From Serpentinicella alkaliphila (GTDB taxonomy: Bacteria > Bacillota > Clostridia > Peptostreptococcales > Natronincolaceae): 64,000 nt of DNA. Position 1 is the first letter of the stretch. Every line of letters starts with the position of its first letter. The notes beneath the pieces were generated by a model. The model had not been told where the DNA came from. It made no database searches and saw nothing but the letters and a program-made list of their open reading frames with translations. Of the stretch, positions 41,099-62,060 are shown one piece after another. The stretch lies in NCBI RefSeq assembly GCF_018141405.1, contig NZ_CP058648.1, forward strand, positions 449,001-513,000, read 5' to 3'. Both the position numbers and the translations under genes were made by a program.

Positions 41099-41121
41099 CA
41101 TGTTTACTAATGCTATAATAT

Positions 41122-41150
41122 AAAATAGAGAGCCCAGGGCTCTCTATTTT
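41122..41150. terminator. Bidirectional terminator, perfect 14-bp arms
   Basis: The arms AAAATAGAGAGCCC (41122-41135) and GGGCTCTCTATTTT (41137-41150) are exact reverse complements. The element lies between the convergent helicase and flavin-protein genes. Confidence 0.92.
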
Positions 41151-41182
41151 ATATTAATATTTTAAGTATTTATAGTTAATTA

Positions 41183-44661: not shown

Positions 44662-45360
44662 TTACACTAATAATAGTCGATATTTATTCATTGTATTCAC
44701 ATCATCCCTATCATTATGAGGAATGTCTATAGTAAATTGTTTTTGTATCTTTAGTGGTATACCAGATAACACATGTATGTGATTTGCCATATACAAAACC
44801 TCATCAATGTCATGGGTTATATAAATAACTACATTTTTTTTCTCGTACCAATAGTCTATAATATAATCTATTAATACTTTCTTAATATCAAAGTGTAAAC
44901 CCTTAAAAGGCTCATCCATTATCAAAATATCACCATCATATGCGAATGCTCTAGCGATTGAAACCCGTTGCCTCATTCCACCACTTAATTCATTGGGATA
45001 ACATTTTTTAAAATCAATTAAATCCACAAGGGATAAATACTTATCCACTATTTCATCTATTTTTCTCTTTTCTATATTCTCTAACACAAACTTAATATTT
45101 TCTTCTATAGTAGCCCAAGGTAATAATCTGTCTTCTTGAAAAATATATGAAATCCTTTTATCCTTAAACCCAATAATATTACCTTTTTCATATGAGCAAA
45201 GCCCAACTAGGGTATTTATTAATGTTGTTTTTCCACAACCTGAGGGACCAAATAGACAATGGATTCCGTCAGATGAAAAATCTATATTAAAATTAGAAAT
45301 AACTTGAAGGTTCCCATAACTCTTATGCAGATTCTTTACTTGTAGCTTCACTATAATCAT
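44662..45360 (-). CDS. ABC importer ATPase, NitT/TauT-type (importer 1)
   Basis: This 232-aa nucleotide-binding subunit shows Walker A GPSGCGKTT (about 38-46), Q-loop YIFQEDRLLPW, signature LSGGMRQRVSIARA, Walker B ILIMDEPFKGL and H-loop THDIDE. Its sequence is closest to the SsuB/TauB class. It is the last gene of the importer-1 operon and its first 38 bases overlap the permease gene. A paralogue is at 55624-56340. Substrate preference is set by the binding protein and is not known. Confidence 0.93.
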   Translation of the reverse strand: MIIVKLQVKNLHKSYGNLQVISNFNIDFSSDGIHCLFGPSGCGKTTLINTLVGLCSYEKGNIIGFKDKRISYIFQEDRLLPWATIEENIKFVLENIEKRKIDEIVDKYLSLVDLIDFKKCYPNELSGGMRQRVSIARAFAYDGDILIMDEPFKGLHFDIKKVLIDYIIDYWYEKKNVVIYITHDIDEVLYMANHIHVLSGIPLKIQKQFTIDIPHNDRDDVNTMNKYRLLLV

Positions 45361-46147
45361 CCCTTTTATAAGAATTATTAACCGTACAAAAGCCGTTAGA
45401 AGTGGACTTTTTGATTAGTTTATTTAACATAATTTCAAATACAACACTTAGTATTATTACTACGGATGTCCAGGCAAATAATTCATTAGTGTCTAAATAA
45501 ACCTTAGCACTATGGACGTAACTACCTATTCCATTTCTGGGGAGACTTAGGACCTCTGCTGCTACACTTGCCTTCCACCCTAACCCCACTGCCGTTAAAC
45601 AGGCAGCAGATACATATGGAATGATTGATGGAAGATAGATCTTTCTTATTACAGTTAATCTTTTAATACCGTACATCTTAGCCATCTCTAAAAGTTTTAT
45701 ATCTACATTCCTTATTCCCGTAACTACATTAGTCCAAATTATTGGAAAACACAACAGGAAACATATAAATATAGGTACATTTGAGGAGCTAAGCCATATT
45801 ACAGCAAGGATAATAAAGGATATAACTGGAGTTGATTTTATAACAATAATAAGTGGATTTATTATGTCATGCACATGTTCATTCATAGCAGAGATTATTC
45901 CAATAGTAATTCCTAAAAGAATTGACCAAGCGAGTCCACTTAATACTCTATATATGGAGAAAGTAATAGATCTCCAAAAGTAAGGCTGCAAAACTAATTG
46001 TCTCAAGCTTAAAAATACGTTAAATGGAGAAGGGACATAAATGTCCCTTCCAATAATCACATGAGTTATCTGCCAAATTAGAACCCAAAATATAAAAATG
46101 CATATATTTTTAATTGATTTCTTATTTTTTGTAGTAATACCCTTCAT
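45323..46147 (-). CDS. ABC importer permease, NitT/TauT-type (importer 1)
   Basis: This 274-aa membrane protein has six predicted helices and the permease EAA loop EMAKMYGIKRLTVIRKIYLPS (about 160-180, near the end of the fourth helix), plus the family block VGLGWKASVAAEVLSLPRNG. The best start is the ATG at 46147 inside the GATGAAGG sequence that encodes the end of the binding protein, giving a 26-base overlap. The longer frame starting at 46186 lacks a ribosome site. The same overlap occurs in importer 2 (54585-54610), which supports this start and a common duplication origin. The paralogue lies at 53852-54610. Confidence 0.92.
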   Translation of the reverse strand: MKGITTKNKKSIKNICIFIFWVLIWQITHVIIGRDIYVPSPFNVFLSLRQLVLQPYFWRSITFSIYRVLSGLAWSILLGITIGIISAMNEHVHDIINPLIIVIKSTPVISFIILAVIWLSSSNVPIFICFLLCFPIIWTNVVTGIRNVDIKLLEMAKMYGIKRLTVIRKIYLPSIIPYVSAACLTAVGLGWKASVAAEVLSLPRNGIGSYVHSAKVYLDTNELFAWTSVVIILSVVFEIMLNKLIKKSTSNGFCTVNNSYKRDDYSEATSKESA

Positions 46148-47144
46148 CTGGTAATTTACCCCCAATTGATTTTTGATCAAAATCAAATAGTACCTGATAA
46201 AATTCCTCTAAATATGCTTTAGCATCCTGTGCATCTATGTATACAATATTGCTTAATGGAATTGCTTTTTTAGCTATGGCTGCCTTAGGTAGTATTTCAA
46301 ATTTTTCAATTAATTCCGAAGCTTCTTCATTATTCTCATTTACAAAACTAACTGACTGTTTATATTCATCCAAAAATATATTAAGAGCCTCTTTATTATT
46401 CTGAGCAAATTCCTTTTGAACAATTATTGACCCCATGGGTAATTGTCTATCTCCTGTTAACTTATTCCATTCAGCCGTAATATCTAAAGCTATTCTTAGG
46501 TTTGGATTTTGCATTAATGCTGTAGTCACATGGGGCTGAGGAAGTAGTCCCATTTTAACATCCCCTGCTACCAATGCTGCTGCTAACTCTGAATGCTGTA
46601 ATTTATAATCAATTATAACATCTTTATCAGGTGTTAGGTTATTCCCGTTTAAAATATAATTAAATACAAAATCCGGCGTTGCACCTTTTCCGCTAGAATA
46701 TATAGACTGACCTCTTAAATCTTCTACAGAATTAATGCTAGCCCCATTTTCTACTACATAAAGTACCCCAAGAGTATTAACAGCTGCTAATTGAATAGCT
46801 CCTTGAGTCCTGTTATATAATACTAAAGCTAAATTAGTTGGAACTGCGGCTACATCTACCTCACCACTTAAAATTTTACCTACTAAATCATCTGGGCTTC
46901 CCAGTAAAGTAAACTCATAATCTAAATCAGTTTCTCCAAGCTCGTTTTTTTCCATTAATTCTGCCATACCCATCCCTGTAGGACCTTTAAGAGTTGTAAC
47001 TTTTATTTTTACTTTCTCTATGTTCTCATTACCTGTTGTTTGTTGACCAATTTCATTTTTGGGGCTACAGCCCACTACAGTACCTAACGTCAAAACTATA
47101 ACAATCATTAAAATCAACACTTTTTTAAACCCATATTTTGTCAA
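46122..47144 (-). CDS. Lipoprotein substrate-binding subunit, SsuA/NMT1-like (importer 1)
   Basis: This 340-aa lipoprotein has a signal peptide with lipobox LGTVVGC (Cys26). The mature part fits the type II binding-protein fold with ILSGEVDVAAVPTNLALVLY, LRGQSIYSSGKGATPD and GGKLPDEGYYYKK at the end. It shares all of these blocks with the paralogue at 54585-55586. The family includes sulfonate, taurine, thiamine-precursor and nitrate binders, so the ligand is open. A Fur-like box (47164-47182) lies 20 bases upstream of the start, implying iron-regulated expression. Confidence 0.92.
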   Translation of the reverse strand: MTKYGFKKVLILMIVIVLTLGTVVGCSPKNEIGQQTTGNENIEKVKIKVTTLKGPTGMGMAELMEKNELGETDLDYEFTLLGSPDDLVGKILSGEVDVAAVPTNLALVLYNRTQGAIQLAAVNTLGVLYVVENGASINSVEDLRGQSIYSSGKGATPDFVFNYILNGNNLTPDKDVIIDYKLQHSELAAALVAGDVKMGLLPQPHVTTALMQNPNLRIALDITAEWNKLTGDRQLPMGSIIVQKEFAQNNKEALNIFLDEYKQSVSFVNENNEEASELIEKFEILPKAAIAKKAIPLSNIVYIDAQDAKAYLEEFYQVLFDFDQKSIGGKLPDEGYYYKK

Positions 47145-47163: not shown

Positions 47164-47182
47164 ATTAGTGATAATCATTTTC
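47164..47182 (-). promoter_or_regulatory. Fur-like box upstream of importer 1
   Basis: The 19-mer contains the central TGATAATCATT exactly and matches the Fur consensus at about 15 of 19 positions. It lies in the short gap between the binding-protein gene and the Crp-type regulator gene. Confidence 0.6.
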
Positions 47183-47208
47183 ATATTAGCACCAACATTG
47201 TTTCTCTG

Positions 47209-47844
47209 TCAATCATATAATATAATTTTATTTGCCTCAAGTATTAAATATTTATCTTCTTCCAATTTTTTTAATATTCTATATAAAGAAGGTCTGCTAA
47301 TACCCAAGTAGTCCGCTAACTCACTTTTACTGAGGTTTAAGGTCACTTGTTTTTTATTATTTTGCTGTACTTTTAATTGTTTTATATAATTAATAATTCT
47401 CTCTTCAATATTATCTTGCGTAAAACACTCTACCCTTTGATTTAAAAAGTGTATTCTCCCACTTATATATCCTAAATAATTTCTTTGAATGTTCTCATCT
47501 AATTGAAATAATTTTAATAAACCTTCTTCATTAATAAACATAACAACCGATTCACTCTTTACATATAAAGACGTTACATTACTAACACTTTCCTGAAAAA
47601 GATTGGCTAAGCCAAAAACATCCCCACCTTTTATTTTATTCATAATAATTTTTTTACCTGTTATAAGGTTTTTCTGTATTTCAATTTTACCACTAAGAAC
47701 TATACCAATTTCTCTATCACAGTTTTCTATATAAGAACCCTTTGCATATATTACAGTTCTATAATTAATCGCTTTAAAAATATTAGTCAGTTTATCAATA
47801 TGTAGATGCTTAAAAAGAAAGGATTTTTGTAATTGATTGCTCAT
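47209..47844 (-). CDS. Crp/Fnr-family transcription regulator (regulator 1)
   Basis: This 211-aa protein has an N-terminal cNMP-binding-type beta barrel (about 20-120, with GIVLSGKIEIQK and GGDVFGLANLF) and a C-terminal winged helix whose recognition helix is LADYLGISRPSLYRILKKL. There are no N-terminal Cys residues of the Fnr type, so it is not an Fe-S sensor of that class. It sits between importer 1 (downstream, same strand) and the triad operon (divergent), and a second Crp-type gene (60538) is placed in the same way by the activase operon. The effector is unknown. Confidence 0.9.
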   Translation of the reverse strand: MSNQLQKSFLFKHLHIDKLTNIFKAINYRTVIYAKGSYIENCDREIGIVLSGKIEIQKNLITGKKIIMNKIKGGDVFGLANLFQESVSNVTSLYVKSESVVMFINEEGLLKLFQLDENIQRNYLGYISGRIHFLNQRVECFTQDNIEERIINYIKQLKVQQNNKKQVTLNLSKSELADYLGISRPSLYRILKKLEEDKYLILEANKIILYD

Positions 47845-47944: not shown

Positions 47945-47971
47945 AAACAATAATGAATTTCATTATTGTTT
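47945..47971. promoter_or_regulatory. Perfect 13-bp-arm palindrome in front of the cytosolic triad operon
   Basis: The arms AAACAATAATGAA (47945-47957) and TTCATTATTGTTT (47959-47971) flank a single T. The core 47949-47967 matches the Fur consensus at 14 of 19 positions. It could bind a Fur-family protein or the neighbouring Crp-type regulator. A second palindrome (TATAATACA and TGTATTATA, 47899-47907 and 47924-47932) lies upstream, between the divergent genes. Confidence 0.6.
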
Positions 47972-47988: not shown

Positions 47989-48702
47989 ATGGTAACAATT
48001 ATTATTGGTGGAGCCCCTGCTGTTGGAAAAACAAGTGTAGTAAAACATATTGTACAGTTTTTACAGCTTCAGAATGATTATCCTGCAGTATGTAAGATCG
48101 ATTGTATTGAAAGTAATGATGAACAAAACTATAAATTATTAAATATTCCTGTCATTCAAGGATTAAGTCAAAATATATGCCCAGATCATTTTTTAGCTAC
48201 TAATATTATTGATATTTTTGAGTGGGGTATAAAGAAAAAATCAAGTCATTTGTTTATTGAAACAGCAGGCCTGTGTAATCGTTGTGCTCCATTCATAAAT
48301 AGGGCCTTAAATATATGCGTTATAGATTGTATGGGCAGTATAAAAGGACCAGAAAAGCTTGGTCCCCTTGTTACAACAGCAGATATTCTAGTTCTAACTA
48401 AATCTGATTTAGTCTCTCAAGCTGAACGTGAAGTATTATCATATCATCTATCTAGCTTAAATTCCAAAGCAATAATCCTGGAAGTTAACGGTCTTTCTGG
48501 CTTTGGAGTACAAAGACTAGTTCAATTAATCGCGAAAAAAGGTCAATCCACTCATACTTTAGAGGAAGACCAGCTTAGATACTCTATGCCTGCAGCCAAC
48601 TGCTCTTATTGTGTTGGGGAAATACGTATTGGCCGTAGTTATCAACAAGGTATAGTTAATAAAATGGCTTTTAATGAGGAAGTTGAGGAAAATATATGCT
48701 AA
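47989..48702 (+). CDS. G3E-like P-loop GTPase with Cys motifs (metallochaperone-like)
   Basis: This 237-aa protein starts MVTIIIGGAPAVGKTSVV behind an AAAGGAGG site. A longer frame from 47953 would begin inside the palindrome and is unlikely. The P-loop is GGAPAVGKTS, the G4-like motif is LTKSD, and a central Cys motif ETAGLCNRCAPF occurs near residue 88. A second CxxC is near the C-terminus (ANCSYCVGEIRIG). This pattern of an NTPase with Cys pairs resembles HypB, UreG and other G3E metal-delivery GTPases, though it is not clearly any of them. It starts a three-gene operon with a soluble ABC ATPase and a binding-protein-like protein. Confidence 0.6.
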   Translation: MVTIIIGGAPAVGKTSVVKHIVQFLQLQNDYPAVCKIDCIESNDEQNYKLLNIPVIQGLSQNICPDHFLATNIIDIFEWGIKKKSSHLFIETAGLCNRCAPFINRALNICVIDCMGSIKGPEKLGPLVTTADILVLTKSDLVSQAEREVLSYHLSSLNSKAIILEVNGLSGFGVQRLVQLIAKKGQSTHTLEEDQLRYSMPAANCSYCVGEIRIGRSYQQGIVNKMAFNEEVEENIC

Positions 48703-49472
48703 ATAAACTTGAAATAATAGCTGGCTATGACAAAAAAGGTATTAAAGAATCTGTTGAGTCTGTCGTATTTGAAAGAGGCCAAATTTATACCATTGTTGGT
48801 AAAACTGGTTCAGGTAAAACATTGTTAATGGAAGATATTGAATGCCTTAACGATGGTGAAGGAATAACTAAGAGGACAATTCTTATTGATGGTGAAAAGC
48901 CTGGTGATTCGTTCTATGTAGGATACAGAAGTAGATTAATAGCACACCTTTCTCAAAATATGAACTATATTCTAGATATGCCAGTACTAGAATTTCTAAA
49001 TTTACGAAATCAACTTCATACTTCTAAAGAATTTAATGTAAACCCTATTAAAACCCTTGAAACAGCTAATTTATTAAGTGGAGAAGAGATACAACCCCAG
49101 CAGCTCCTCACTAAATTAAGTGGTGGACAATCAAGGGCATTGATGATAACTGATGTGGCACTAAACAGTTCAGCTCCAGTTATACTAATAGATGAGGTTG
49201 AAAATGCTGGTATAGATAGAATTAAGGCAATGTCTTTATTAATAAAGCATGAGAAGATTGTTTTAGTAGCTACCCATGACCCACTATTAGCTCTATACGG
49301 TAATAAAAGAATTGTACTAAGCAACGGTGGTATGAGTAAAATAATTGAACGCTCATCTGAAGAAGAAGCCATATTGGAACAACTAATTGCAGTAAATGAT
49401 AAAATGGAAAAAATGCGTCTACAAATTCGTAATGGAGAATCATTAAAAGGAGTGAATGACCTTGTCTTATAA
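48696..49472 (+). CDS. Soluble ABC-type ATPase without a permease partner
   Basis: This 258-aa ATPase has Walker A VGKTGSGKT (about 35-43), signature KLSGGQSRALMI, Walker B VILIDEVENAG and H-loop ATHDP. No membrane segment is visible and no permease gene lies beside it. It overlaps the GTPase gene by 7 bases and the next gene by 17. The tight overlap indicates a stable complex with both. ABC ATPases without membrane partners act in processes such as SufC-type Fe-S assembly or methyl-coenzyme M reductase activation. The role here is unknown. Confidence 0.75.
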   Translation: MLNKLEIIAGYDKKGIKESVESVVFERGQIYTIVGKTGSGKTLLMEDIECLNDGEGITKRTILIDGEKPGDSFYVGYRSRLIAHLSQNMNYILDMPVLEFLNLRNQLHTSKEFNVNPIKTLETANLLSGEEIQPQQLLTKLSGGQSRALMITDVALNSSAPVILIDEVENAGIDRIKAMSLLIKHEKIVLVATHDPLLALYGNKRIVLSNGGMSKIIERSSEEEAILEQLIAVNDKMEKMRLQIRNGESLKGVNDLVL

Positions 49473-50412
49473 AGTTTATTGGAATAATATATGTTTATTA
49501 AGCAATATGGAAGAGGCTTTTATTAACACCCAACAAAAAATACAGAAGCATTTTCCGTTCACCTTTGAGTACTATGGTTTAGGAAAACCTTCATCAATGA
49601 CTGTAAAAATTAAAGAGGATATACAAGCCGGAAACATAGGTGGAGATATTATAGTTTCAACGGATTTAGATATATATCAAGATGTAACGATTGCTAAATA
49701 TTTACAGAATGAATTTAAAAAAAGTTCTTCCCTTTTACCTATTAATGAGCATCTATTTAACACTACTATACCTCATCCTGAACAATACTTTCACCCCTTT
49801 GTAGTTATTCCTCTAGTTATGGTCGTTAACAGTAATTTAGTCAAAGAATCTGAAATGCCAAAAGCGTTTGAAGACTTAATAAGCCCTAACTTTAAATACA
49901 GATATGCATTTGGTGGAATACATAACTCTGCAGGTAGATCCTTATTGAAATCACTCTGGTATATGTATGGAAAAAAAACTGTAGAGAAATTTCTATCTGG
50001 GGCTACTATTACTACTATGCCAGCTCAGGCATTTCAACAGGTTATGACTGGTCAAGTAGAAGTCGCTATAGTGCCAACAATTTTTGCCCTTAGAAAGGGG
50101 GTTAATGGAATAAAAGCAATCTGGCCAAAAGAAGGTGCAATTCCTATACCCTCCTATGTTGCATGCAAAAACAATGTCTCTGAAGAGGATTTTAGTTTAT
50201 TTGTTGATAATATACTAGGTAAAGAATTTCAATTACAGTTAAAAAATGCTGGTGATATAATTCCATCTCACCCAGAACTATCTATATCATCCTTTGCAAT
50301 GGAAAATGATTGTAAGTTGCTTTATCCAGAATGGGAATTTTTTAAAACATTTGATCATGAAGAGTTCTATAATCAATGCAATAGCTTCTATCATCTTTTA
50401 AAAGCACAATAG
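49456..50412 (+). CDS. Substrate-binding-protein-like protein lacking a signal peptide
   Basis: This 318-aa protein resembles type II periplasmic binding proteins: GGDIIVSTDLDIYQDV, HPFVVIPLVMVVNSNLVKES, FGGIHNSAGRSLLKSLWYM and VTGQ-like VMTGQVEVAIVPTIFAL. There is no signal peptide, lipobox or membrane helix at the N-terminus, so it should stay in the cytosol, which is unusual for the fold. The start is an ATG after AAAAGGAGTGA, or a TTG two codons later with better spacing. As the last gene of the triad it probably binds a small molecule or metal complex handed on by the GTPase and ATPase. Confidence 0.7.
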   Translation: MTLSYKVYWNNICLLSNMEEAFINTQQKIQKHFPFTFEYYGLGKPSSMTVKIKEDIQAGNIGGDIIVSTDLDIYQDVTIAKYLQNEFKKSSSLLPINEHLFNTTIPHPEQYFHPFVVIPLVMVVNSNLVKESEMPKAFEDLISPNFKYRYAFGGIHNSAGRSLLKSLWYMYGKKTVEKFLSGATITTMPAQAFQQVMTGQVEVAIVPTIFALRKGVNGIKAIWPKEGAIPIPSYVACKNNVSEEDFSLFVDNILGKEFQLQLKNAGDIIPSHPELSISSFAMENDCKLLYPEWEFFKTFDHEEFYNQCNSFYHLLKAQ

Positions 50413-51856: not shown

Positions 51857-53629
51857 TTAATGGAGGAGAGCATTAATTAAACTTACACTTTGATTTATAA
51901 TTCCTCCCACTAAAATAGCTGTGAAAATTGTAAAAATACTAATCTGAATCGCTACCTTTATACTAAATTCCTTAACTAAAATTCCAAAAACTGAAAGGCA
52001 AGGAAGATAAAACAATGCGACTACAGAGCCTACAACCATCTGTAATGTGCTTAAATTTAATTGTAATAATGGTAGAACTGCCATTTCTCTTCTAACAATT
52101 CCTAAGATTAAAGCTATACTTGCTTCAGCAGGTAGTCCAAGCCACTGGACAACCAATGGTTGAATTAATACACCTACAGAATTTAGTAATCCTGTCTCAG
52201 CGACTAATGCAGCTATACCTACGGCTAATACCATTGGAAGTTCTGCTTCAATCATAAAGCTTCTTACTCTAAACCAAATCTTTTTTAATAATGCCTGTGC
52301 ATTTGGTACAAGCAAGTACGGTATTTCTAAAAGCATTGGGTTTACAAACCCATCTAACATTTTGTTTAGTACGATACCGCCTAATAGAATAAAACAAAAG
52401 GAAATTAAATAAACAAATATAATTGCTAACATTGAGTGGTTCCCTAGAAGGGCAATAAAAGCTCCAGTTTGGGCAATACAAGGAACAGCTAATGTTACGA
52501 GAGTAGAAATTATCAATCGTTCTTTTTGAGATGTAGCTACCCTAGATCCCAAAATCGCTGGGATTGCGCACCCATAACCCATAATAAAAGGGACTATACT
52601 ACTCCCTTGAATACCAATACGCCTTAATATACCATCCACTATGACACCTAAATGTGGCAAATATCCAGTATCCTCTAATACAGATAATACTCCATAGAAT
52701 AAGGCTACATAAGGTAGAATTAGTGCAAAGGGCCATTCAACTCCTTTGATTAGCATGCCATACTCTCCAATAAGAATATTTAAAATTATACCTTCCGAGA
52801 TAATACTTTCAATAAGCTTAGAAATTAAAGGAACATACCAGTTATTCAATATAGGAAGTAGTATTAGAGTCCTTAAAGCCTTACCTCCACCTACAACTAT
52901 AGCTAGACAAAATAGTAAAACAACTATTGCAATAGGTAATCCAGTATAAAAATTAATACATAAATCACTAAATTTATCTAATTTGGATACTCTCGATTCA
53001 ACTGAATTTAAATGAACTTTTTTAACAATCGCCTTTGATTTATCCCATATTTCTTCTTTACTTAAGCCTTCTTCCCTTCGTGCATAATAATCATTTTGCC
53101 CTAGCTCCCATGTTTTTTGTAAAACTTCTTTAATTCCAATGTTTCTTGTTGCAATTGTTGATATTACAGGCGCACCTAATTCTGTTTCCAATGATTTAAT
53201 ATCTATTTTAATCCCTTTGGAATCAGCTATATCTAGTAAGTTTAAAACAAATACAACTGGAATTTCATATTCCATAACCTGAAATGCTAAATTAATGCTT
53301 CTTTCTAAGAATGTTGCATCTAACACACATATTATAACATCAGGCCGGCCTTCCTCTAAAAACTTTATTGCAACTTCTTCAGCACTTGAGGTAGCCTCTA
53401 ATGAATATATACCTGGAACATCTGTTATAATGCCGGTTTTACCTAAATGCTTTATTTTGCCCTGTGAATAGTCAACAGTGGTGCCTGGATAATTAGAAAT
53501 CATAACTTGCATACCTGTTAGTTTTGAAAATATAACACTTTTACCCACATTAGGGTTCCCGATTAATAGAATTCGTATTTCTTCCTTTTCCGTATTACTT
53601 ATATTATTAATAACACTATGGCAGCCCAA
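51857..53629 (-). CDS. feoB: FeoB-family ferrous iron transporter, short form
   Basis: This 590-aa protein has an N-terminal GTPase domain (G1 GNPNVGKS at 24-31, G3 TDVPGIYSLE, G4 NLLD) followed by about eight membrane helices. The GYGCAIPAILGSR segment corresponds to the FeoB gate motif around the conserved GxGC..P. The chain is shorter than most FeoBs (about 650-770 aa), and no FeoA gene is nearby. The start is a TTG overlapping GAGGAG, and its exact position is uncertain because the frame is open upstream. A near-perfect Fur box (53662-53680) lies just upstream. It should import Fe(II) or a similar metal. Confidence 0.88.
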   Translation of the reverse strand: MGCHSVINNISNTEKEEIRILLIGNPNVGKSVIFSKLTGMQVMISNYPGTTVDYSQGKIKHLGKTGIITDVPGIYSLEATSSAEEVAIKFLEEGRPDVIICVLDATFLERSINLAFQVMEYEIPVVFVLNLLDIADSKGIKIDIKSLETELGAPVISTIATRNIGIKEVLQKTWELGQNDYYARREEGLSKEEIWDKSKAIVKKVHLNSVESRVSKLDKFSDLCINFYTGLPIAIVVLLFCLAIVVGGGKALRTLILLPILNNWYVPLISKLIESIISEGIILNILIGEYGMLIKGVEWPFALILPYVALFYGVLSVLEDTGYLPHLGVIVDGILRRIGIQGSSIVPFIMGYGCAIPAILGSRVATSQKERLIISTLVTLAVPCIAQTGAFIALLGNHSMLAIIFVYLISFCFILLGGIVLNKMLDGFVNPMLLEIPYLLVPNAQALLKKIWFRVRSFMIEAELPMVLAVGIAALVAETGLLNSVGVLIQPLVVQWLGLPAEASIALILGIVRREMAVLPLLQLNLSTLQMVVGSVVALFYLPCLSVFGILVKEFSIKVAIQISIFTIFTAILVGGIINQSVSLINALLH

Positions 53630-53661: not shown

Positions 53662-53680
53662 AATAATGATAATCATTATC
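53662..53680 (-). promoter_or_regulatory. Fur box of feoB
   Basis: AATAATGATAATCATTATC matches the Fur consensus at 18 of 19 positions and lies 32 bases upstream of the feoB start. Confidence 0.9.
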
Positions 53681-53851: not shown

Positions 53852-54610
53852 TCAATCTTTATGTTTTTTTGCTACTTCTATTATTTGTTCTAACATTGCC
53901 GCTAATACAATTGTTATTAGAGACCATGCAAATACTCCAGCAGTATTAAGACTAGCCCTTTCGATTTGAAAATTTGTACCCATAGAGATTCTGGGTTGAC
54001 TTAAAACCTCTGCGGCTATTATTATTTTAAGATTCAATCCCATAGCAGAAGACATTGCACCGTATAAATATGAACTTATAGATGGTATATATAAATCCAT
54101 AAACTTATCTATTATACCAATATGATATATATCCATCATTTCAACAATCTTTATATCAACATTTCTAATCCCTTGTACAACACTCTCATATATAACAGGG
54201 AATATAACTACAAACCCTACTAAAATTGGTGCCTTTTCTGACTGTAGCCAGATAAGTGCAAGTAAAATCATAGCCATTGTCGGCACAGCTTTATTTACTA
54301 AGATAATAGGTCTTAATAGGTAATAAATCGGTCTTGAGAAACCACCCATCATCCCTAAGCTAACCCCTGCCCCTAAGGCAAATACAAATCCTATTAATGC
54401 CCTTTTCAAAGTATTAATTAAGGAGGTAATAAAGTTAGGAGAGCTGATAATCCTAATTAATTCTTTTAAAGTACTTGCTGGAGATGGAATTAATATTTCT
54501 CTATCTACTATATTAGCTGCTATATTCCAAATAATTATTAGTACAATTACTGACAATAGAGTATATAAAGGTTCCTTCGGTTCTTTATTTTTGGAAATAG
54601 AAGCCTTCAT
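53852..54610 (-). CDS. ABC importer permease, NitT/TauT-type (importer 2)
   Basis: This 252-aa permease begins MKASISKNKEPKEP, with five to six membrane helices and the EAA-loop region EMMDIYHIGIIDKFMDLYIPS. It shares the family block VDIKIVEM and the AAEVLSQPRISMG motif. Its ATG overlaps the 3' end of the binding-protein gene by 26 bases, exactly as in importer 1. It is the last gene of a four-gene operon that starts with the giant activase. The paralogue is at 45323. Confidence 0.93.
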   Translation of the reverse strand: MKASISKNKEPKEPLYTLLSVIVLIIIWNIAANIVDREILIPSPASTLKELIRIISSPNFITSLINTLKRALIGFVFALGAGVSLGMMGGFSRPIYYLLRPIILVNKAVPTMAMILLALIWLQSEKAPILVGFVVIFPVIYESVVQGIRNVDIKIVEMMDIYHIGIIDKFMDLYIPSISSYLYGAMSSAMGLNLKIIIAAEVLSQPRISMGTNFQIERASLNTAGVFAWSLITIVLAAMLEQIIEVAKKHKD

Positions 54611-55586
54611 CAGGAAGCTTCCCTCCTATTGTTTCTGGTGCATATTCAAATAGCACGTTTAAATATTTCTCTATAGATTCCTTAGCGCTCTTAATATCTC
54701 TATACTCTATGTTTGATCTTCCTAAGCCATTTACTACAGCTCCTTTTGATAATCCTGTTTCAAGTTCTTCACTGTATTCTCCTGCCTTAGGAGCATTTGA
54801 ATGTAACCATTTAATGCTGTTTTCATATTCCATTAAAAAGTTTTGTACAAACTCTGGATCTTTCTCAATAATCTCGCTTTTAATTATTAATGATGCTTGA
54901 GGATAACTTGAATTGATTTTGTTTAGTTTAGCCCACTCCTCTTGTAAATCAAATAGTATATTAGTACCCTCTTTTTTCATCATTACATTTGAAAGTGCTG
55001 GTTCTGGTATAACGGATATGGCACTTTTCCCTGCTATAAATGTTGAAGCAAGCTCCGCAGCCTCACCCACATAAGTTAAAGTCACATCTTTTTCTGGATC
55101 TAAACCATTACTAGTTAATAGGTATCTTAAAACTACATCCGGAGTAAGACCTCTACCCATAGTATGTATTTCTTTTCCCCTTAAATCATCCCATCCATTA
55201 ATTTCTTCATTTCCAACTAAATAAAGAACACCCCATACACTTGATGCTGCAATTTTATAGTCTACACCTCTATTATATAGAGTTGCGGCTAAATTTGTTG
55301 GTACTACAGCAATATCGATTTCACCTGAAATTATTCTAGAAGCTAATAAATCTGGTGACTTTATAGTTTCATAGTTTATTTCTATATGATCTCCAAAGGA
55401 AGGGTTTTCTTTAAACATTTTAATCATACTTAAATTTGGAGCTCCAGTTGGGGCAGCAACATTTAAACTTAAGTTCTCTAGTTCTTTAACTTCTTCTACC
55501 TTTGGATTGTCAACCTTTGAAGAACATCCAACTAAAAACATTACTGCTAAACCTAAAATTAAAATAAGACTAATCACCTTTTTCAT
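54585..55586 (-). CDS. Lipoprotein substrate-binding subunit, SsuA/NMT1-like (importer 2)
   Basis: This 333-aa lipoprotein starts MKKVISLILILG behind an AGGAG site. A longer frame from 55631 lacks that. The lipobox FLVGC places Cys21 as the lipidated residue. Shared blocks with importer 1 are VVPTNLAATLYNRG, LRGKEIHTMGRGLTPD and the terminal GGKLPDEGFYFQK. The two binding proteins are clear paralogues that have diverged in the middle, so they may bind related but different ligands. It lies between the ATPase and permease genes of the same operon. Confidence 0.92.
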   Translation of the reverse strand: MKKVISLILILGLAVMFLVGCSSKVDNPKVEEVKELENLSLNVAAPTGAPNLSMIKMFKENPSFGDHIEINYETIKSPDLLASRIISGEIDIAVVPTNLAATLYNRGVDYKIAASSVWGVLYLVGNEEINGWDDLRGKEIHTMGRGLTPDVVLRYLLTSNGLDPEKDVTLTYVGEAAELASTFIAGKSAISVIPEPALSNVMMKKEGTNILFDLQEEWAKLNKINSSYPQASLIIKSEIIEKDPEFVQNFLMEYENSIKWLHSNAPKAGEYSEELETGLSKGAVVNGLGRSNIEYRDIKSAKESIEKYLNVLFEYAPETIGGKLPDEGFYFQK

Positions 55587-55623
55587 TATTGTTTTACACT
55601 CCTTATATTTTATATTTTTATTT

Positions 55624-56340
55624 TTAAGCACTTTTATAGGTGCCTTTATCCTGTTGTTTAGAAAGAGTTTTTATTAACTTACTCCTTACTTCAAATAACT
55701 CCCTATCATCTAGGCTCCTTAAATTTTGTGGGGTATTTATTTTTATAACAGTCTCAACAGTACAAGGGTTTTTCGTAAGTACTACAACTCTATTCCCTAA
55801 TAGTAACGCCTCATCAATTTCATGAGTAACAAACACAATCGAATTCTTCCATTTATGCCATATATCAATTAAGCTTTTTACCATATTTATTCTTAAATCA
55901 TAATCCAAAGATTTAAATGGCTCATCCATTAAAAGCATTTGGCATTCATAGTTAAAAGCTCTGGCTATGGAACATCTCTGTCTCATGCCACCACTTAATT
56001 GATTAGGGTATTTGTTTTCAAAATTGCTCAGACCTACAATATCGATTAAGTTTTGGATTTTATTATCCGAAGCAATTTTGTTAACAATTTTAATATTTTC
56101 AAATACAGTTTTCCATGGCAGTAATCTATCCTCCTGAAAAACATATCCGATTTTCTTATGATTATTTTTTATACTACCTTTATCTGGATTAATAATCCCC
56201 GCCATTACATTAAGTAAGGTAGACTTACCACAACCTGAAGGACCTAAAATACAGGTTATTTCATTATCTTTGATTTCCATATTAAAGTTGTGCAGTACAT
56301 TTATTTCATCATAACTTTTATAAATACCATCTAGAAACAT
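55624..56340 (-). CDS. ABC importer ATPase, NitT/TauT-type (importer 2)
   Basis: This 238-aa ATPase has Walker A GPSGCGKST, Q-loop YVFQEDRLLPWKTV, signature LSGGMRQRCSIARA, Walker B LLMDEPFKSLD and H-loop THEIDE. It closely resembles the importer 1 ATPase. It is the second gene of the operon, 35 bases after the activase gene. It should drive uptake of whatever the binding protein at 54585 captures. Confidence 0.93.
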   Translation of the reverse strand: MFLDGIYKSYDEINVLHNFNMEIKDNEITCILGPSGCGKSTLLNVMAGIINPDKGSIKNNHKKIGYVFQEDRLLPWKTVFENIKIVNKIASDNKIQNLIDIVGLSNFENKYPNQLSGGMRQRCSIARAFNYECQMLLMDEPFKSLDYDLRINMVKSLIDIWHKWKNSIVFVTHEIDEALLLGNRVVVLTKNPCTVETVIKINTPQNLRSLDDRELFEVRSKLIKTLSKQQDKGTYKSA

Positions 56341-56375: not shown

Positions 56376-59300
56376 TCACTTCATTGCATAGTATATAAAT
56401 GAATCTATTTTTGAGTTATCTATTTCATTTTCATTTCCATCAAAGGTCATATTTAATATCGGTAGCTTTGATAACCTTTTCTGATCTTGAGTAAATATAT
56501 TCAAGATAGTGTTTGTATTTTCATACATCGAAGAAACAGAAATAACTCCGTTTACAAAATCTAAATTACCTAAAGTTTTTGCATATCTATATCTACCATT
56601 TCCTCCAGTATATAAGCCTAATCCCTCATCAGCTCTTCTAACAAGGTCATTCATATCCTTTTCAAATATGTTTATAGGCTCGACTATATTAGATATTACT
56701 TTCATATAATTAGAAAGCGTTGTTAAATTGTTCAGTAGTTCATCCGCTTTTTGAGTCTTGTTATGTGCTAAGTAATCTCTCCATAAAAACCACATATACT
56801 CGCTAAGAGGTGCAAATAAAAGGTTTATACCCTTTTCCTCTAAGGCTTTAAATCTATTGTTATTTAAGAAATCGTTAAAAATAATACTTGCTTCTCCTAT
56901 AACAAATAGCTTACTTGTATGTGCATTACTTTTTAGCTCTTTACTAATTTCCATGGCTATATCCTGCAAACTATCAATAGATAATTTATTATTTTTAATT
57001 AAACAAATAATTTTATTTACGTACTCTTCTCTTCTATTTCTTCGTAAGAGATTTACTAAATCTCCCCCCAGAAGTAATAGAAATATCTGTTCAGACAATT
57101 GCCTATCTTTTATTACATCCTCAATGAAAGGAGCTACTATTTCTGCATTCTGCATATTTCCATTATCTAACTTATCTCGTAATAATCTATTGTATTGTCC
57201 ACCTATTTCCGCGCCCTCACAGGTAGGTATTATAAAACCAATATTCTGGTTTTGCTCATTACTCTCTAGACCTTTGGACAAAATATCCCCTAAAATGCTA
57301 GTAAAGGATAGGTACTCTTTAGTTAATGTATTTTTACGTCCTACATCAAGTGTTTTACCTGAAGTCATAGGAAGTACATGTACATCATAGGCTTTTCCTT
57401 GAAGCGAAGCTGCTAATAGCTCAGAGTAAGGATATAAAAATGGCAAATATAGTATAGTGTTCTTATCTACTTCATCCAAGTTATTTTTTATATAAGTTGG
57501 TTTGTGAGTAACCTTATTTGAGTAATCTTTTAAAGTTAAATCATTAGCCACTTCAACCTTATCGGATTTAATGCTATTTACAAAGGCCTCTACTCTTGTC
57601 AATACTCCTACACTTGAAAAATGCTCATCTACTTCAATATTTAAGTAAGGCTTTCCACTCATTTCTTCCTTAAAATAATGAACTAAGGCAGTATCAGGTC
57701 CACAACCATGATTTGTTATATAAATTGGATATAGATTAGGATGCTGCTTAATTATTTGAGCTCCAGATAAAATATGCTGCCCGAAGGGCCAATACATATT
57801 AGGATGTTCCTTAGATGTATCATGATCATGAGCTGGCAAATTAGATAGTGTTAACACTTTATAACCTAACTTTTCTAGCTTTTCAGGTATACCCATATTC
57901 AATATTGGATCTACTATGCCATAACCCCTAGTCACTATCACAAAGACTTTTTCATCCTTCCCTAAGCTACTAACAACTTCTTCCCCTTGTTTTTCAACCT
58001 TTAATTCAAAGCGTCTTAGGCTTTTCATTCCTTTCGTTAAGGCTGAGCCTGTTCGAATTGGATTCTTACCTAACTGTTTCCCTAACTCCATTAAGGTCTT
58101 CATCAAATATTTCTTGCCAAACTTAAAGGAAAGCTCTGGTGATAATAATTTTATTCCTTTTCTATCAAGGTCCATGGTTATATCTATAAGCTTTGGAACA
58201 CATTGCATATAAACACATCCATAATCTTGTCTAGTTGTTGAAACTGAATGGGACATAGTGTATAAGCTTGGTAAAAAAATGTAATCTACTTTCTTTTCAA
58301 TTAATTCAGCTATATGGCCATTTATAAGTTTAATTGGATAGCAAGTTTCATCCATTGAATACTCTTGACTTAGCTCTACAGTTTTCTCACTACTGTTATC
58401 AGATAATATGACATTAAAACCTAGCTCTTTAAAATAAGTATTAAATAGCGGAAATAGTTTGTGTAGGAAAAGCACTCTTGGTATCCCAACTGTCTTTTTA
58501 GAAGGATCTAACTTACGGTCATATCCTGCTAAATAGAGTCTTTCAATCTCTTCAAATATTTCTGTTCTTTTAGCTTCTTTTACAATTTCATGCTTACGTT
58601 CTTTTTCATATACTACATTTTCATCTAAATTAAAGCCTCTAAATGAAGACTGGCCTTTCATATCTTCCTTTGCTAAAATTGCTGCGCCATATGCTCCTGT
58701 TACGCTAAAAAACTTAGGTATTTCTAATTTTTCGCCTAATATGGCCTTAAAAGCATTTATTACTGCCTGATTGTATGCCACTCCACCTTGGAACAATATT
58801 TTATTTCCAACTACTTTGTTTCCAACTACTTTATTAAGATAATTCTTTGCAATTGAATAAGCTAATCCGGCGGCTATATCTTCTAATTTTGCTTCGTTAC
58901 TCAAACTTGCTGCTATATTTGTTTCTATAAAAACTGTACATCTATCCCCTAAATCTATAGGGCTTTTGGACTTCATTGCTAAATCCCCAAAATCATTTAT
59001 AGGAATATTTAATTTTAATGCCTGCTCTTCTATAAATGATCCAGTCCCTGCTGCACAAATTTTATTCATCTCAAAATCTGAAACAACACCATTCTCTAAT
59101 TTTATAAATTTTGAGTCCTGACCACCGATTTCTATTATCGTATCTACTTCAGGGTCGATAAAATTTGCGGCCTTTGCTTGTGCAGTTATTTCATCTATGA
59201 TTACATCTGCACCTACAAACTTACCTATCATATACCTACCAGAGCCAGTAGTTCCTACCCCTAGTACATTTATTTTTTTTCCAAGATCATTTTGTATTTC

Positions 59301-60383
59301 CTGTAGGCCTTGGGTTACTACCTTTATTGGATTACCCCGGGTTCTTAAATATTTAAAACTAATAACATCATTATTTTCATCCATAAATACAACATTTGTA
59401 CTTGTTGAACCGATATCAATACCTATATATCCACTAACAGCCCCTTCGGAGCCTATTGCTTTACAGTTGTGTTTGTTGCTACTATCATTGCTTCCATACT
59501 GGGATAAAGAGGATAAAATAACTGTATTATCAAAGGATGCTAGTAACCTTTCGTTTTCTAAACTTAGATTAACAAAACTAGTTAGATCAATGGATAGATT
59601 ATCCTTTAGTCCTATAATTGCTGCCCCAAGAGCTGAAATATTGCCACAATCCTTAGGTATTATTACATCCTCATTATTTAGTTTTAATACATCGATTAAA
59701 GCCTTTACAATCGATTCATTATATATAACTCCTCCAGTAAGTAATAGAGGTGTTCGTATTGGATATTTCTTTACAACATTAGCTCTGTAGTTTTTAACAA
59801 GCGCATATGCTAAACCTAATAAAATATCCTTTGAGTCTACCCCCTCTTGCTGATGATGTATAATATCTGTTTTAGCAAATACACTACATCTTCCAGCTAT
59901 ACGGGGTATGAAGGTTGCATTTTGAGTAAGATTTGAGTAACTCTCTAAATTAACTCCTAATCTAGATACCTGTTCCTCTATAAACGAACCTGTACCTGCA
60001 GAACAATTAGAATTAATAGATATTAATATATTTGAATTGTCCGAATCACTTATATTAGTTAGAAACTTTGAGCTTTGACCACCAATCTCTACAATAGAAC
60101 CTATATCACAATTAACTTGTTTACTACCCTCTACCAAAGAAGTAACTTCGTTTATCCATGACAGTCCATATTTTTCTGATATATATTTACTGCCCTGACC
60201 TGTTGCAGCTCCATATCTTATGCTATTTCCGTATTTACTAGTTAATTGTTTTATATTTTTATCTATTTCTTCCTTAACTCTACCTTTATGTAAAACATAG
60301 GTACTATACTGTACTTCCATCTTTTCATCTATTAGTAAGAATTTTATGGAAGAATATCCGATATCAATTCCTAAGCTATGCAA
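56376..60383 (-). CDS. Giant tandem 2-hydroxyacyl-CoA dehydratase activase fused to DUF2229 and HgdB-like domains
   Basis: This 1335-aa cytosolic protein joins two ASKHA ATPase domains of the BadF/HgdC type (about 1-265 and 320-575), a DUF2229 domain (about 632-870) and a further HgdB-like region to about 1335. Both ATPase domains keep the two cluster-ligand cysteines, Cys127 and Cys166 (NCSAGTGSF, GRCSVF) and Cys443 and Cys482 (ICAAGTGSF, DRCTVF). Activases normally dimerise and share one [4Fe-4S] cluster held by four such Cys, so one chain could form its own pseudo-dimer. ATP hydrolysis would drive a very low-potential electron to a partner. It is the first gene of an operon with ABC importer 2 and has a Fur-like box upstream (60428-60446). 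The acceptor is unknown. Confidence 0.9.
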   Translation of the reverse strand: MHSLGIDIGYSSIKFLLIDEKMEVQYSTYVLHKGRVKEEIDKNIKQLTSKYGNSIRYGAATGQGSKYISEKYGLSWINEVTSLVEGSKQVNCDIGSIVEIGGQSSKFLTNISDSDNSNILISINSNCSAGTGSFIEEQVSRLGVNLESYSNLTQNATFIPRIAGRCSVFAKTDIIHHQQEGVDSKDILLGLAYALVKNYRANVVKKYPIRTPLLLTGGVIYNESIVKALIDVLKLNNEDVIIPKDCGNISALGAAIIGLKDNLSIDLTSFVNLSLENERLLASFDNTVILSSLSQYGSNDSSNKHNCKAIGSEGAVSGYIGIDIGSTSTNVVFMDENNDVISFKYLRTRGNPIKVVTQGLQEIQNDLGKKINVLGVGTTGSGRYMIGKFVGADVIIDEITAQAKAANFIDPEVDTIIEIGGQDSKFIKLENGVVSDFEMNKICAAGTGSFIEEQALKLNIPINDFGDLAMKSKSPIDLGDRCTVFIETNIAASLSNEAKLEDIAAGLAYSIAKNYLNKVVGNKVVGNKILFQGGVAYNQAVINAFKAILGEKLEIPKFFSVTGAYGAAILAKEDMKGQSSFRGFNLDENVVYEKERKHEIVKEAKRTEIFEEIERLYLAGYDRKLDPSKKTVGIPRVLFLHKLFPLFNTYFKELGFNVILSDNSSEKTVELSQEYSMDETCYPIKLINGHIAELIEKKVDYIFLPSLYTMSHSVSTTRQDYGCVYMQCVPKLIDITMDLDRKGIKLLSPELSFKFGKKYLMKTLMELGKQLGKNPIRTGSALTKGMKSLRRFELKVEKQGEEVVSSLGKDEKVFVIVTRGYGIVDPILNMGIPEKLEKLGYKVLTLSNLPAHDHDTSKEHPNMYWPFGQHILSGAQIIKQHPNLYPIYITNHGCGPDTALVHYFKEEMSGKPYLNIEVDEHFSSVGVLTRVEAFVNSIKSDKVEVANDLTLKDYSNKVTHKPTYIKNNLDEVDKNTILYLPFLYPYSELLAASLQGKAYDVHVLPMTSGKTLDVGRKNTLTKEYLSFTSILGDILSKGLESNEQNQNIGFIIPTCEGAEIGGQYNRLLRDKLDNGNMQNAEIVAPFIEDVIKDRQLSEQIFLLLLGGDLVNLLRRNRREEYVNKIICLIKNNKLSIDSLQDIAMEISKELKSNAHTSKLFVIGEASIIFNDFLNNNRFKALEEKGINLLFAPLSEYMWFLWRDYLAHNKTQKADELLNNLTTLSNYMKVISNIVEPINIFEKDMNDLVRRADEGLGLYTGGNGRYRYAKTLGNLDFVNGVISVSSMYENTNTILNIFTQDQKRLSKLPILNMTFDGNENEIDNSKIDSFIYYAMK
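58804..58833. repeat. In-frame 15-bp tandem duplication inside the activase gene
   Basis: TTTCCAACTACTTT plus G or A is repeated side by side (58804-58818 and 58819-58833). It adds the five residues VVGNK in the second ATPase domain (NKVVGNKVVGNK). It is a recent in-frame expansion. Confidence 0.9.
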
Positions 60384-60427: not shown

Positions 60428-60446
60428 GACTATGATTATCATTTTC
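60428..60446 (-). promoter_or_regulatory. Fur-like box upstream of the activase operon
   Basis: On the minus strand GAAAATGATAATCATAGTC matches the Fur consensus at 16 of 19 positions. It is 45 bases before the activase start. Confidence 0.7.
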
Positions 60447-61282: not shown

Positions 61283-61708
61283 CTATTTAACTAACTTTGC
61301 CCCTAATTCTTTACATTGTTTTAAACCTTCGTCATCAGGAGTTAAATGTAAAATTAACCCTTCAGCAACTAAGCTAGCACCGTAATCTTCCATTCTTTTT
61401 TCCCAATCCTTCATCCATTCACCATTACCCCAATCGTAAGACCCAAATAGTGCAACAGATTTTCCTGTAATAACACTTTGTAATGACTCTACGAAAGGTT
61501 CCATTTCTACCTCTTCTAACACCTCAGCCCCCATAGAAGGACAACCTAGTGCAACATAATCTGCCTTATTTACATCCTCTAAAGTAGCTTGATCGACACT
61601 TAAAAGTTTAACTTCATTACCGCCCTCTTGTGCCCCTTCAACAATTGATTTAGCCATCATTTCTGTATTTCCTGTTCCACTCCAATAAATAACCACAACT
61701 TTTTTCAT
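61283..61708 (-). CDS. Flavodoxin (iron-limitation electron carrier)
   Basis: This 141-aa flavodoxin starts MKKVVVIYWSGTGNTE, with the FMN phosphate loop SGTGNTE, then LGCPSMGAE and FGSYDWGNGEWM around the flavin ring. The longer frame to 61804 is a read-through into the promoter. A GGAGGT site seven bases before the ATG at 61708 is decisive. A strong Fur box (61784-61802) lies upstream, typical of flavodoxins that replace ferredoxin when iron is short. Flavodoxin hydroquinone is a known electron donor to 2-hydroxyacyl-CoA dehydratase activases, which links it to the giant activase 1.3 kb away. Confidence 0.95.
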   Translation of the reverse strand: MKKVVVIYWSGTGNTEMMAKSIVEGAQEGGNEVKLLSVDQATLEDVNKADYVALGCPSMGAEVLEEVEMEPFVESLQSVITGKSVALFGSYDWGNGEWMKDWEKRMEDYGASLVAEGLILHLTPDDEGLKQCKELGAKLVK

Positions 61709-61783
61709 TTTATGTACCTCCATTAATTTATTGTTATTGCAACTACAAATTCTGTTTTCATTGATATATGACAACTCACTTTT

Positions 61784-61802
61784 GATAATAGTTATCATTA
61801 TC
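61784..61802 (-). promoter_or_regulatory. Fur box of the flavodoxin gene
   Basis: On the minus strand GATAATGATAACTATTATC matches the Fur consensus at 17 of 19 positions. It is followed by a further TATCAT half-site at 61815-61820. Confidence 0.88.
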
Positions 61803-62060
61803 ATTAGTTAAAGGTTATCATGTGTTATTTTGTTTGTCAATATAATTTTTTTAATTCAAAAAAAATAAAATGGCATAAGTCTTAGGACCTATACCTTTTA
61901 TTCCACTGGTTAATACGGGGTGTGGGGATCAGATCAGTGGTTTATCAAAATTTAGAAATTAACAATTATATTGATACTAATTTTCATAAAGCAAATATTA
62001 TCAATTGTCAAGCTAATTGTCAACATTATTTTTTATTTTAAATAGTTTGAATGGAAAATA
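61803..62060. other. Gene-free stretch upstream of the flavodoxin promoter
   Basis: I see no credible ORF. An inverted repeat CCACTG/CAGTGG brackets a G-rich run at about 61911-61941 (GGGGTGTGGGG). Its role is unclear. Confidence 0.4.

Follow-up and report, generated by a model that had tools for sequence, protein, structure and literature searches.

The GTPases HypB and UreG bind nickel through a Cys-His and a Cys-Pro-His motif, respectively. COG0523/CobW proteins are likewise G3E GTPases with a metal-trafficking context, and their hallmark is the motif CxCC (PMC9164220). The fate of iron and other metal chelates inside the cytosol of anaerobes is poorly known. Here, we analysed three overlapping genes of Serpentinicella alkaliphila in a stretch of 64,000 nucleotides, called the window, which a first-pass annotation had read as a permease-less set of a Cys-rich GTPase, a soluble ABC ATPase and a signal-less binding-protein-like protein.

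The triad occupies 47989-50412 (Table 1), and the overlaps given by the first-pass annotation, 7 bases between the GTPase and ATPase genes and 17 bases between the ATPase gene and the third gene, are correct. The GTPase starts with the ATG at 47989, preceded by the ribosome-binding site GGAGGAG. A longer start proposed by the ORF finder (47953) is not credible, since it lies within a palindrome and has no ribosome-binding site; residues are therefore numbered from 47989, and the longer start would add 12. The third gene is present in one copy in the genome, as is the GTPase family. None of the triad proteins reached an NCBIfam equivalog cut-off, and AlphaFold models, built from two to three sequences, gave mean pLDDT values of 37 and 34. 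Elsewhere in the window, a 20-bp inverted repeat without mismatches around a single central base (41116-41156) lies directly after the gene 38987-41098 and is probably a terminator.

Table 1. Features of the triad locus and its surroundings, in positions of the window (GTPase motifs in residues).
Feature	Position	Strand	Family or remark
Importer 1, NitT/SsuABC type	44662..47144	-	lipoprotein SBP 46122-47144, permease 45323-46186, ATPase 44662-45360
Fur box 5′ of importer 1	47169..47183	.	exact match to C. difficile consensus (PMC6311696)
Divergent Crp/Fnr-family regulator	47209..47844	-	PF00027 + PF13545
Perfect 13+1+13 palindrome	47945..47971	.	directly 5′ of triad ribosome-binding site
Putative Fur-like box of triad	47949-47967	.	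15/19 match, inside palindrome
Cys-rich G3E GTPase, HypB/UreG branch	47989..48702	+	PF02492
GTPase anatomy			G8-T15 P-loop; C64-P-D-H67; E91-TAGLC96-x-R-C99; C110; TKxD 137-140; C205-x-x-C208
Soluble ABC ATPase	48696..49472	+	PF00005
Signal-less binding-protein fold, SBP_bac_6	49456..50412	+	PF13343
FeoB-like ferrous iron transporter	51857..53629	-	TIGR00437 over cut-off
Fur box 5′ of FeoB-like gene	53662..53680	.	18/19
Importer 2, NitT/SsuABC type	53852..56340	-	permease 53852-54610, SBP 54585-55631, ATPase 55624-56340
BadF/BcrA-type activase + DUF2229 protein	56376..60383	-	PF01869, PF09989, TIGR00241; head of importer-2 operon
Fur box 5′ of BadF/importer-2 operon	60428..60446	.	motif match
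Flavodoxin	61283..61804	-	PF00258
Fur box at flavodoxin	61784-61802	.	overlaps called start

Genomes of the phylum were searched for the third gene, and 28 of 398 were positive, with the GTPase and ATPase genes adjoining in most of them. Profile scores of the GTPase were bimodal, separating the family of the window (F1, 335–408 bits) from a sister family (195–221 bits). F1 was found in 20 of 391 genomes of the class and is thus patchily distributed. All retrieved stretches together gave 52 F1 loci, from Bacillota and one Fusobacterium, and the ATPase gene adjoins the GTPase gene in every one of them (52/52). A record of Fusobacterium vincentii also holds the trio. Scanning a plasmid collection yielded one Fusobacterium record and a distant UreG, scanning genome contigs with the single GTPase sequence only two close relatives, and scans of viral contigs no matches. 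Evolutionary distances across 25 complete trios were correlated (r = 0.95 for GTPase and ATPase, 0.89 for GTPase and third protein, 0.88 for ATPase and third protein; permutation p = 0.0005), part of which reflects common ancestry. Based on the invariable adjacency and these correlations, we conclude that the trio belongs together beyond chance; the observation stands and reaches further than the reading of a single window could show.

The GTPase scores 40.6 bits against PF02492 (cut-off 20.7) and is thus a G3E P-loop GTPase, with GxxxxGKT, ETAG and TKxD conserved in the family alignment. The motif ETAGLCNRCAP and the C-terminal CxxC noticed before are both present, the latter as CSYC. Six cysteines and one histidine (C64, H67, C96, C99, C110, C205, C208) are invariant in 52/52 F1 GTPases, C39 is kept in 49/52, and CPDH, CxxC and the C-terminal CxxC recur in all eight sister-family GTPases as well. 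The full-length nearest solved structures are HypB and UreG (2HF8, 3e-10; 5XKT, 3e-9), and in the alignment to them C64-P65-D66-H67 coincides with Cys-Pro-His in UreG and with Cys-His in HypB. However, the protein reaches 31.7 bits for HypB (TIGR00073, equivalog cut-off 121.2) and 19.9 bits for UreG (TIGR00101, equivalog cut-off 204.2), and CxCC is absent from both its sequence and the family alignment. Failing the tests for HypB, UreG and COG0523, it counts as a G3E GTPase that is close to HypB/UreG but belongs to neither.

The ABC ATPase is complete in Walker A, Q-loop, LSGGQ, Walker B (E167) and H194. It had been described as lacking a membrane partner, and indeed the operon contains no permease gene, dedicated to this ATPase or otherwise, while each adjacent importer brings its own ATPase. 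The third protein matches SBP_bac_6 (PF13343, 7.5e-25). As a measure of signal peptides, the best 15-residue hydropathy within the first 45 residues was taken; it is 0.57 for the window protein, in agreement with the signal-less product seen earlier, and does not exceed 1.49 in any of the 44 homologues, whereas true importer SBPs of the same loci reach at least 2.2. No signal peptide was therefore found in any of the 44 homologues (0/44), all of which look cytosolic by this measure. Homologues with signal peptides next to a permease, which the first-pass annotation had named as evidence against its reading, were not seen, and the permeases nearby are parts of complete importers, each of which has an SBP of its own. 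The annotations PF13343 and ABC_tran, together with the adjacent importers, could suggest a normal ABC importer that has lost its permease or signal peptide, or in which these were overlooked, the GTPase being a chance neighbour. We strongly disfavour this explanation and give it hardly any credence: besides the missing signal peptides and the self-sufficient importers, the GTPase-ATPase pair persists where the SBP-like gene is absent, and the triad ATPases group away from those of transporters. In the tree, F1 and sister-family ATPases are each monophyletic and jointly distinct from 16 further ABC ATPases encoded at these loci (support 0.75–0.99). The candidate was rejected on the hydropathy of the third proteins, the ATPase tree and the survey of 52 loci.

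Hints of a link to iron came from putative Fur boxes. A classical Fur box with at most three mismatches gave 7 strand-hits in the window (0.05 expected; none of 100 shuffles exceeded one), and the C. difficile consensus TGATAATVAWHWTCA (PMC6311696) gave 11 matches against 1.4 expected; one Fur-motif match (44068) falls inside a gene. The true start of the flavodoxin gene probably lies further in, since a box overlaps the called one. Further matches in the genome, which speak for the motif, lie between genes for a FecB-type SBP and an ABC ATPase, and 5′ of an iron-hydrogenase-like gene. Low iron induces an SsuABC importer, an iron-hydrogenase-like gene and a flavodoxin in C. difficile, the first two indirectly in the opinion of the authors, and the same paper reports Fur control of flavodoxin and a benzoyl-CoA reductase in C. 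acetobutylicum (PMC6311696). Across the whole genome, the motif with at most three mismatches has 19 matches compared to 13 for the reversed control, so that single sites are weak evidence; the argument rests on promoter positions and on clustering, since 2% of the genome holds 4 of the 12 distinct sites. The box of the triad is the weakest of the window set, and its 15/19 match was reached by 1 of 60 shuffles of the region. Nevertheless, the promoter box is conserved in relatives, as expected for a Fur regulon: boxes of at least 15/19 precede the triad in 9/13 loci sharing the architecture of the window versus 1/39 others (p = 1.8e-6; loci not fully independent). In Alkaliphilus peptidifermentans (L031), Fur boxes lie 5′ of BadF, the triad and the flavodoxin. 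We predict that the triad is under iron (Fur) control in the clade of the window, a link added by the present analysis. Hardly any loci of other architectures carry a Fur box, so that the role of iron may be confined to this branch.

The other regulator at the locus is of the Crp/Fnr family, and its gene is divergent in 11/13 loci of this architecture. The binding-protein subunit might thus sense imported ligand in the cytosol and the NTPases signal to this regulator, which would fit the poor conservation of the third subunit (median identity 21%), as this could reflect varied ligands. However, the regulator adjoins only 4/39 loci of other architectures, and two conserved catalytic NTPases with an invariant Cys/His set exceed the needs of a sensor; we regard such a role as very improbable.

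The GTPase-ATPase pair is constant and its third partner is exchangeable. Because the third protein is so weakly conserved, its ligands may differ; several Fe(3+)-binding proteins are among its nearest solved relatives. Fusion to DUF1858 is frequent and marks one branch, whose ATPase carries an N-terminal extension of its own. At other loci, the genes that come after the pair encode a DUF4213/DUF364 protein, a methyltransferase and a THEP1-type NTPase. DUF4213/DUF364 is annotated as 'putative heavy-metal chelation', and DUF364 has been tied to metal transport through genome context (PMC2954201). The sister family has the order ATPase, GTPase and PF04060 Fe-S protein in 7/8 mapped loci (L093, L095, L097-L100, L102), where the Fe-S protein carries PPGKNCGLCG...CPYY. 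This sister triad, present in about 23/398 genomes of the phylum, is a second permease-less machine on the same NTPase pair, for which we found no family name. In a single genome (L042:8438-17417), two complete triads of different types flank one methyltransferase-FecB-FecCD importer cluster.

With Fe-S proteins as third partner in the sister family, the machine could, instead of handling imported metal, serve the maturation or repair of unusual Fe-S enzymes, such as Hcp or the local BadF/DUF2229 activase, the NTPases opening the client and the third subunit recognising it. Hcp is encoded within 8 kb in 10/52 F1 loci and genome-wide in 26/28 F1 genomes compared to 19/29 controls, the DUF1858 branch is the Hcp-linked one, and BadF/DUF2229 shares the Fur-boxed island in two genomes. 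On the other hand, these two genomes are the only ones with BadF near the trio, most loci have no Hcp nearby, and a binding-protein fold would be unusual as a client adaptor. We consider this explanation unlikely, though worth some weight. Hcp as a universal client is ruled out at the window locus, as its gene is distant from the triad in this genome; it is possible in the DUF1858 branch. A second hybrid-cluster-protein gene (G000:C1:175026-176645) contains one in-frame TGA, which may be a selenocysteine codon, a sign of a pseudogene or an error. The BadF/BcrA-DUF2229 protein of the window comprises 1335 aa, is split into 767 and 566 aa in A. peptidifermentans, there also behind a Fur box, and is possibly an ATP-driven reductase in the response to iron starvation.

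Importer parts lie within 8 kb at 28/52 F1 loci versus 0/8 sister loci, counts that stand without a random-position background, and belong to FecB/FecCD, NitT/SsuABC or Znu-like types; about half of the F1 loci have no listed importer nearby. At one further locus (L086:10303-18306), the GTPase-ATPase pair lacks the SBP, and the genes after it encode a small exported protein and a NikBCA-type nickel importer, whose permease scores over the NCBIfam cut-off. Given also that HypB and UreG are the nearest families and structures, the triad might insert nickel (or cobalt) into an uncharacterised enzyme as a third branch beside these two, with Fur control as local fine-tuning. However, the nickel importer is seen at 1/52 loci only, the predicted regulator at the locus is Fur rather than a nickel regulator, and 12/28 F1 genomes have neither CODH (10/28 F1 genomes, 6/29 controls) nor [NiFe]-hydrogenase (13/28 and 11/29), the two nickel enzymes counted. 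A nickel machine is decidedly unlikely in our judgement. Neither enzyme can be an obligatory client, as genome co-occurrence rules this out.

Taken together, a fixed unit that recurs in many anaerobes, a predicted iron-starvation switch and importers alongside suggest that the triad is probably an undescribed handler of imported iron or another metal. Our preferred reading, to which we assign a little under an even chance, is a cytosolic two-NTPase metal-handling machine, i.e., a metallochaperone or metal-mobilising device, which in the clade of the window would most likely handle iron during iron starvation. This metal role is favoured by the invariant Cys/His set, the partner swaps, the importer linkage, the Fur-like boxes and the Fe(3+)-binding structural relatives. 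Against it speak the weak box of the triad, the near absence of Fur boxes from other architectures, the nickel importer beside one F1 pair, the nickel-handling relatives of the GTPase, the poor conservation of the third protein and the many loci with no listed importer close by. We infer complex formation, the identity of the metal, the direction of its transfer and the client in the following scheme. Fur-controlled importers would take up a metal chelate or a small metal ligand, which the signal-less binding-protein subunit would capture and hold in the cytosol, setting substrate specificity. The Cys/His sites of the UreG/HypB-like GTPase (CPDH, LCxRC, CxxC) would then accept the metal, the soluble ABC ATPase would drive a conformational, mechanical step, and GTP hydrolysis would release the bound metal to a pool or a client enzyme.

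The permease-less cytosolic triad near importers and its metal-binding signatures, as first described, thus hold up and extend to a conserved set (52/52 pairs, 44/44 signal-less), and the suggested metal or cofactor role finds support at the level of sequence motifs and genome context. The first-pass annotation had overlooked the Fur boxes, with their hint of iron, as well as the exchange of the third partner and the existence of a sister triad. In more general terms, the triad may represent an undescribed class of anaerobe cofactor-handling machines, in which an obligate pair of Cys-rich G3E GTPase and soluble ABC ATPase is joined by an exchangeable third subunit (cytosolic SBP, DUF1858-SBP, DUF4213/DUF364 or the sister-family Fe-S protein) that fixes the imported metal or cofactor, the version in the window being a Fur-controlled iron-mobilising unit; this generalisation is plausible but tentative. 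If true, the permanent pairing of a nickel-chaperone-type GTPase with a soluble ABC ATPase, steered by swappable ligand-binding subunits, would be a new metallochaperone design, and genes that family-only annotation labels as stray ABC transporter parts would be explained. This reading can be tested directly, thanks to the Fur boxes and the invariant Cys set.

No description of the trio was found in the literature searched, and each of the known systems resembles it in part. FbpA, FutA and PotD, binding proteins for Fe(3+), phosphonate or polyamines, share the fold family of the third protein and are its nearest solved structures, whereas the latter is cytosolic, signal-less, without a cognate permease and little conserved across the family. 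Selenocysteine-assisted organometal (SAO) transport is similar in that it combines a NitT-type importer with a metal association, and the importer permeases of the window score best against SaoP; however, none of the family cut-offs for SaoA, SaoP, SaoB or SaoX was reached (best SaoP 104 bits versus 295), all scores are far below them, and no selenocysteine or SaoL was seen. DUF364 proteins such as Dhaf4260 can take the place of the third protein beside the same NTPase pair and have a reported metal-transport context (PMC2954201), but are absent from the window. COG0523/CobW proteins share the G3E GTPase and the metal-trafficking context, while the triad GTPase has neither CxCC nor the C-terminal CobW domain and works with other partners. 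HypB and UreG are of the same superfamily, and the Cys of CPDH aligns with their metal-binding Cys; in contrast to them, the triad GTPase scores far under their family cut-offs, has extra invariant CxxC motifs, is paired with an ABC ATPase and often occurs in genomes without hydrogenase. The triad appears to work like a G3E metallochaperone system, yet by the tests made it lies outside HypB, UreG and COG0523.
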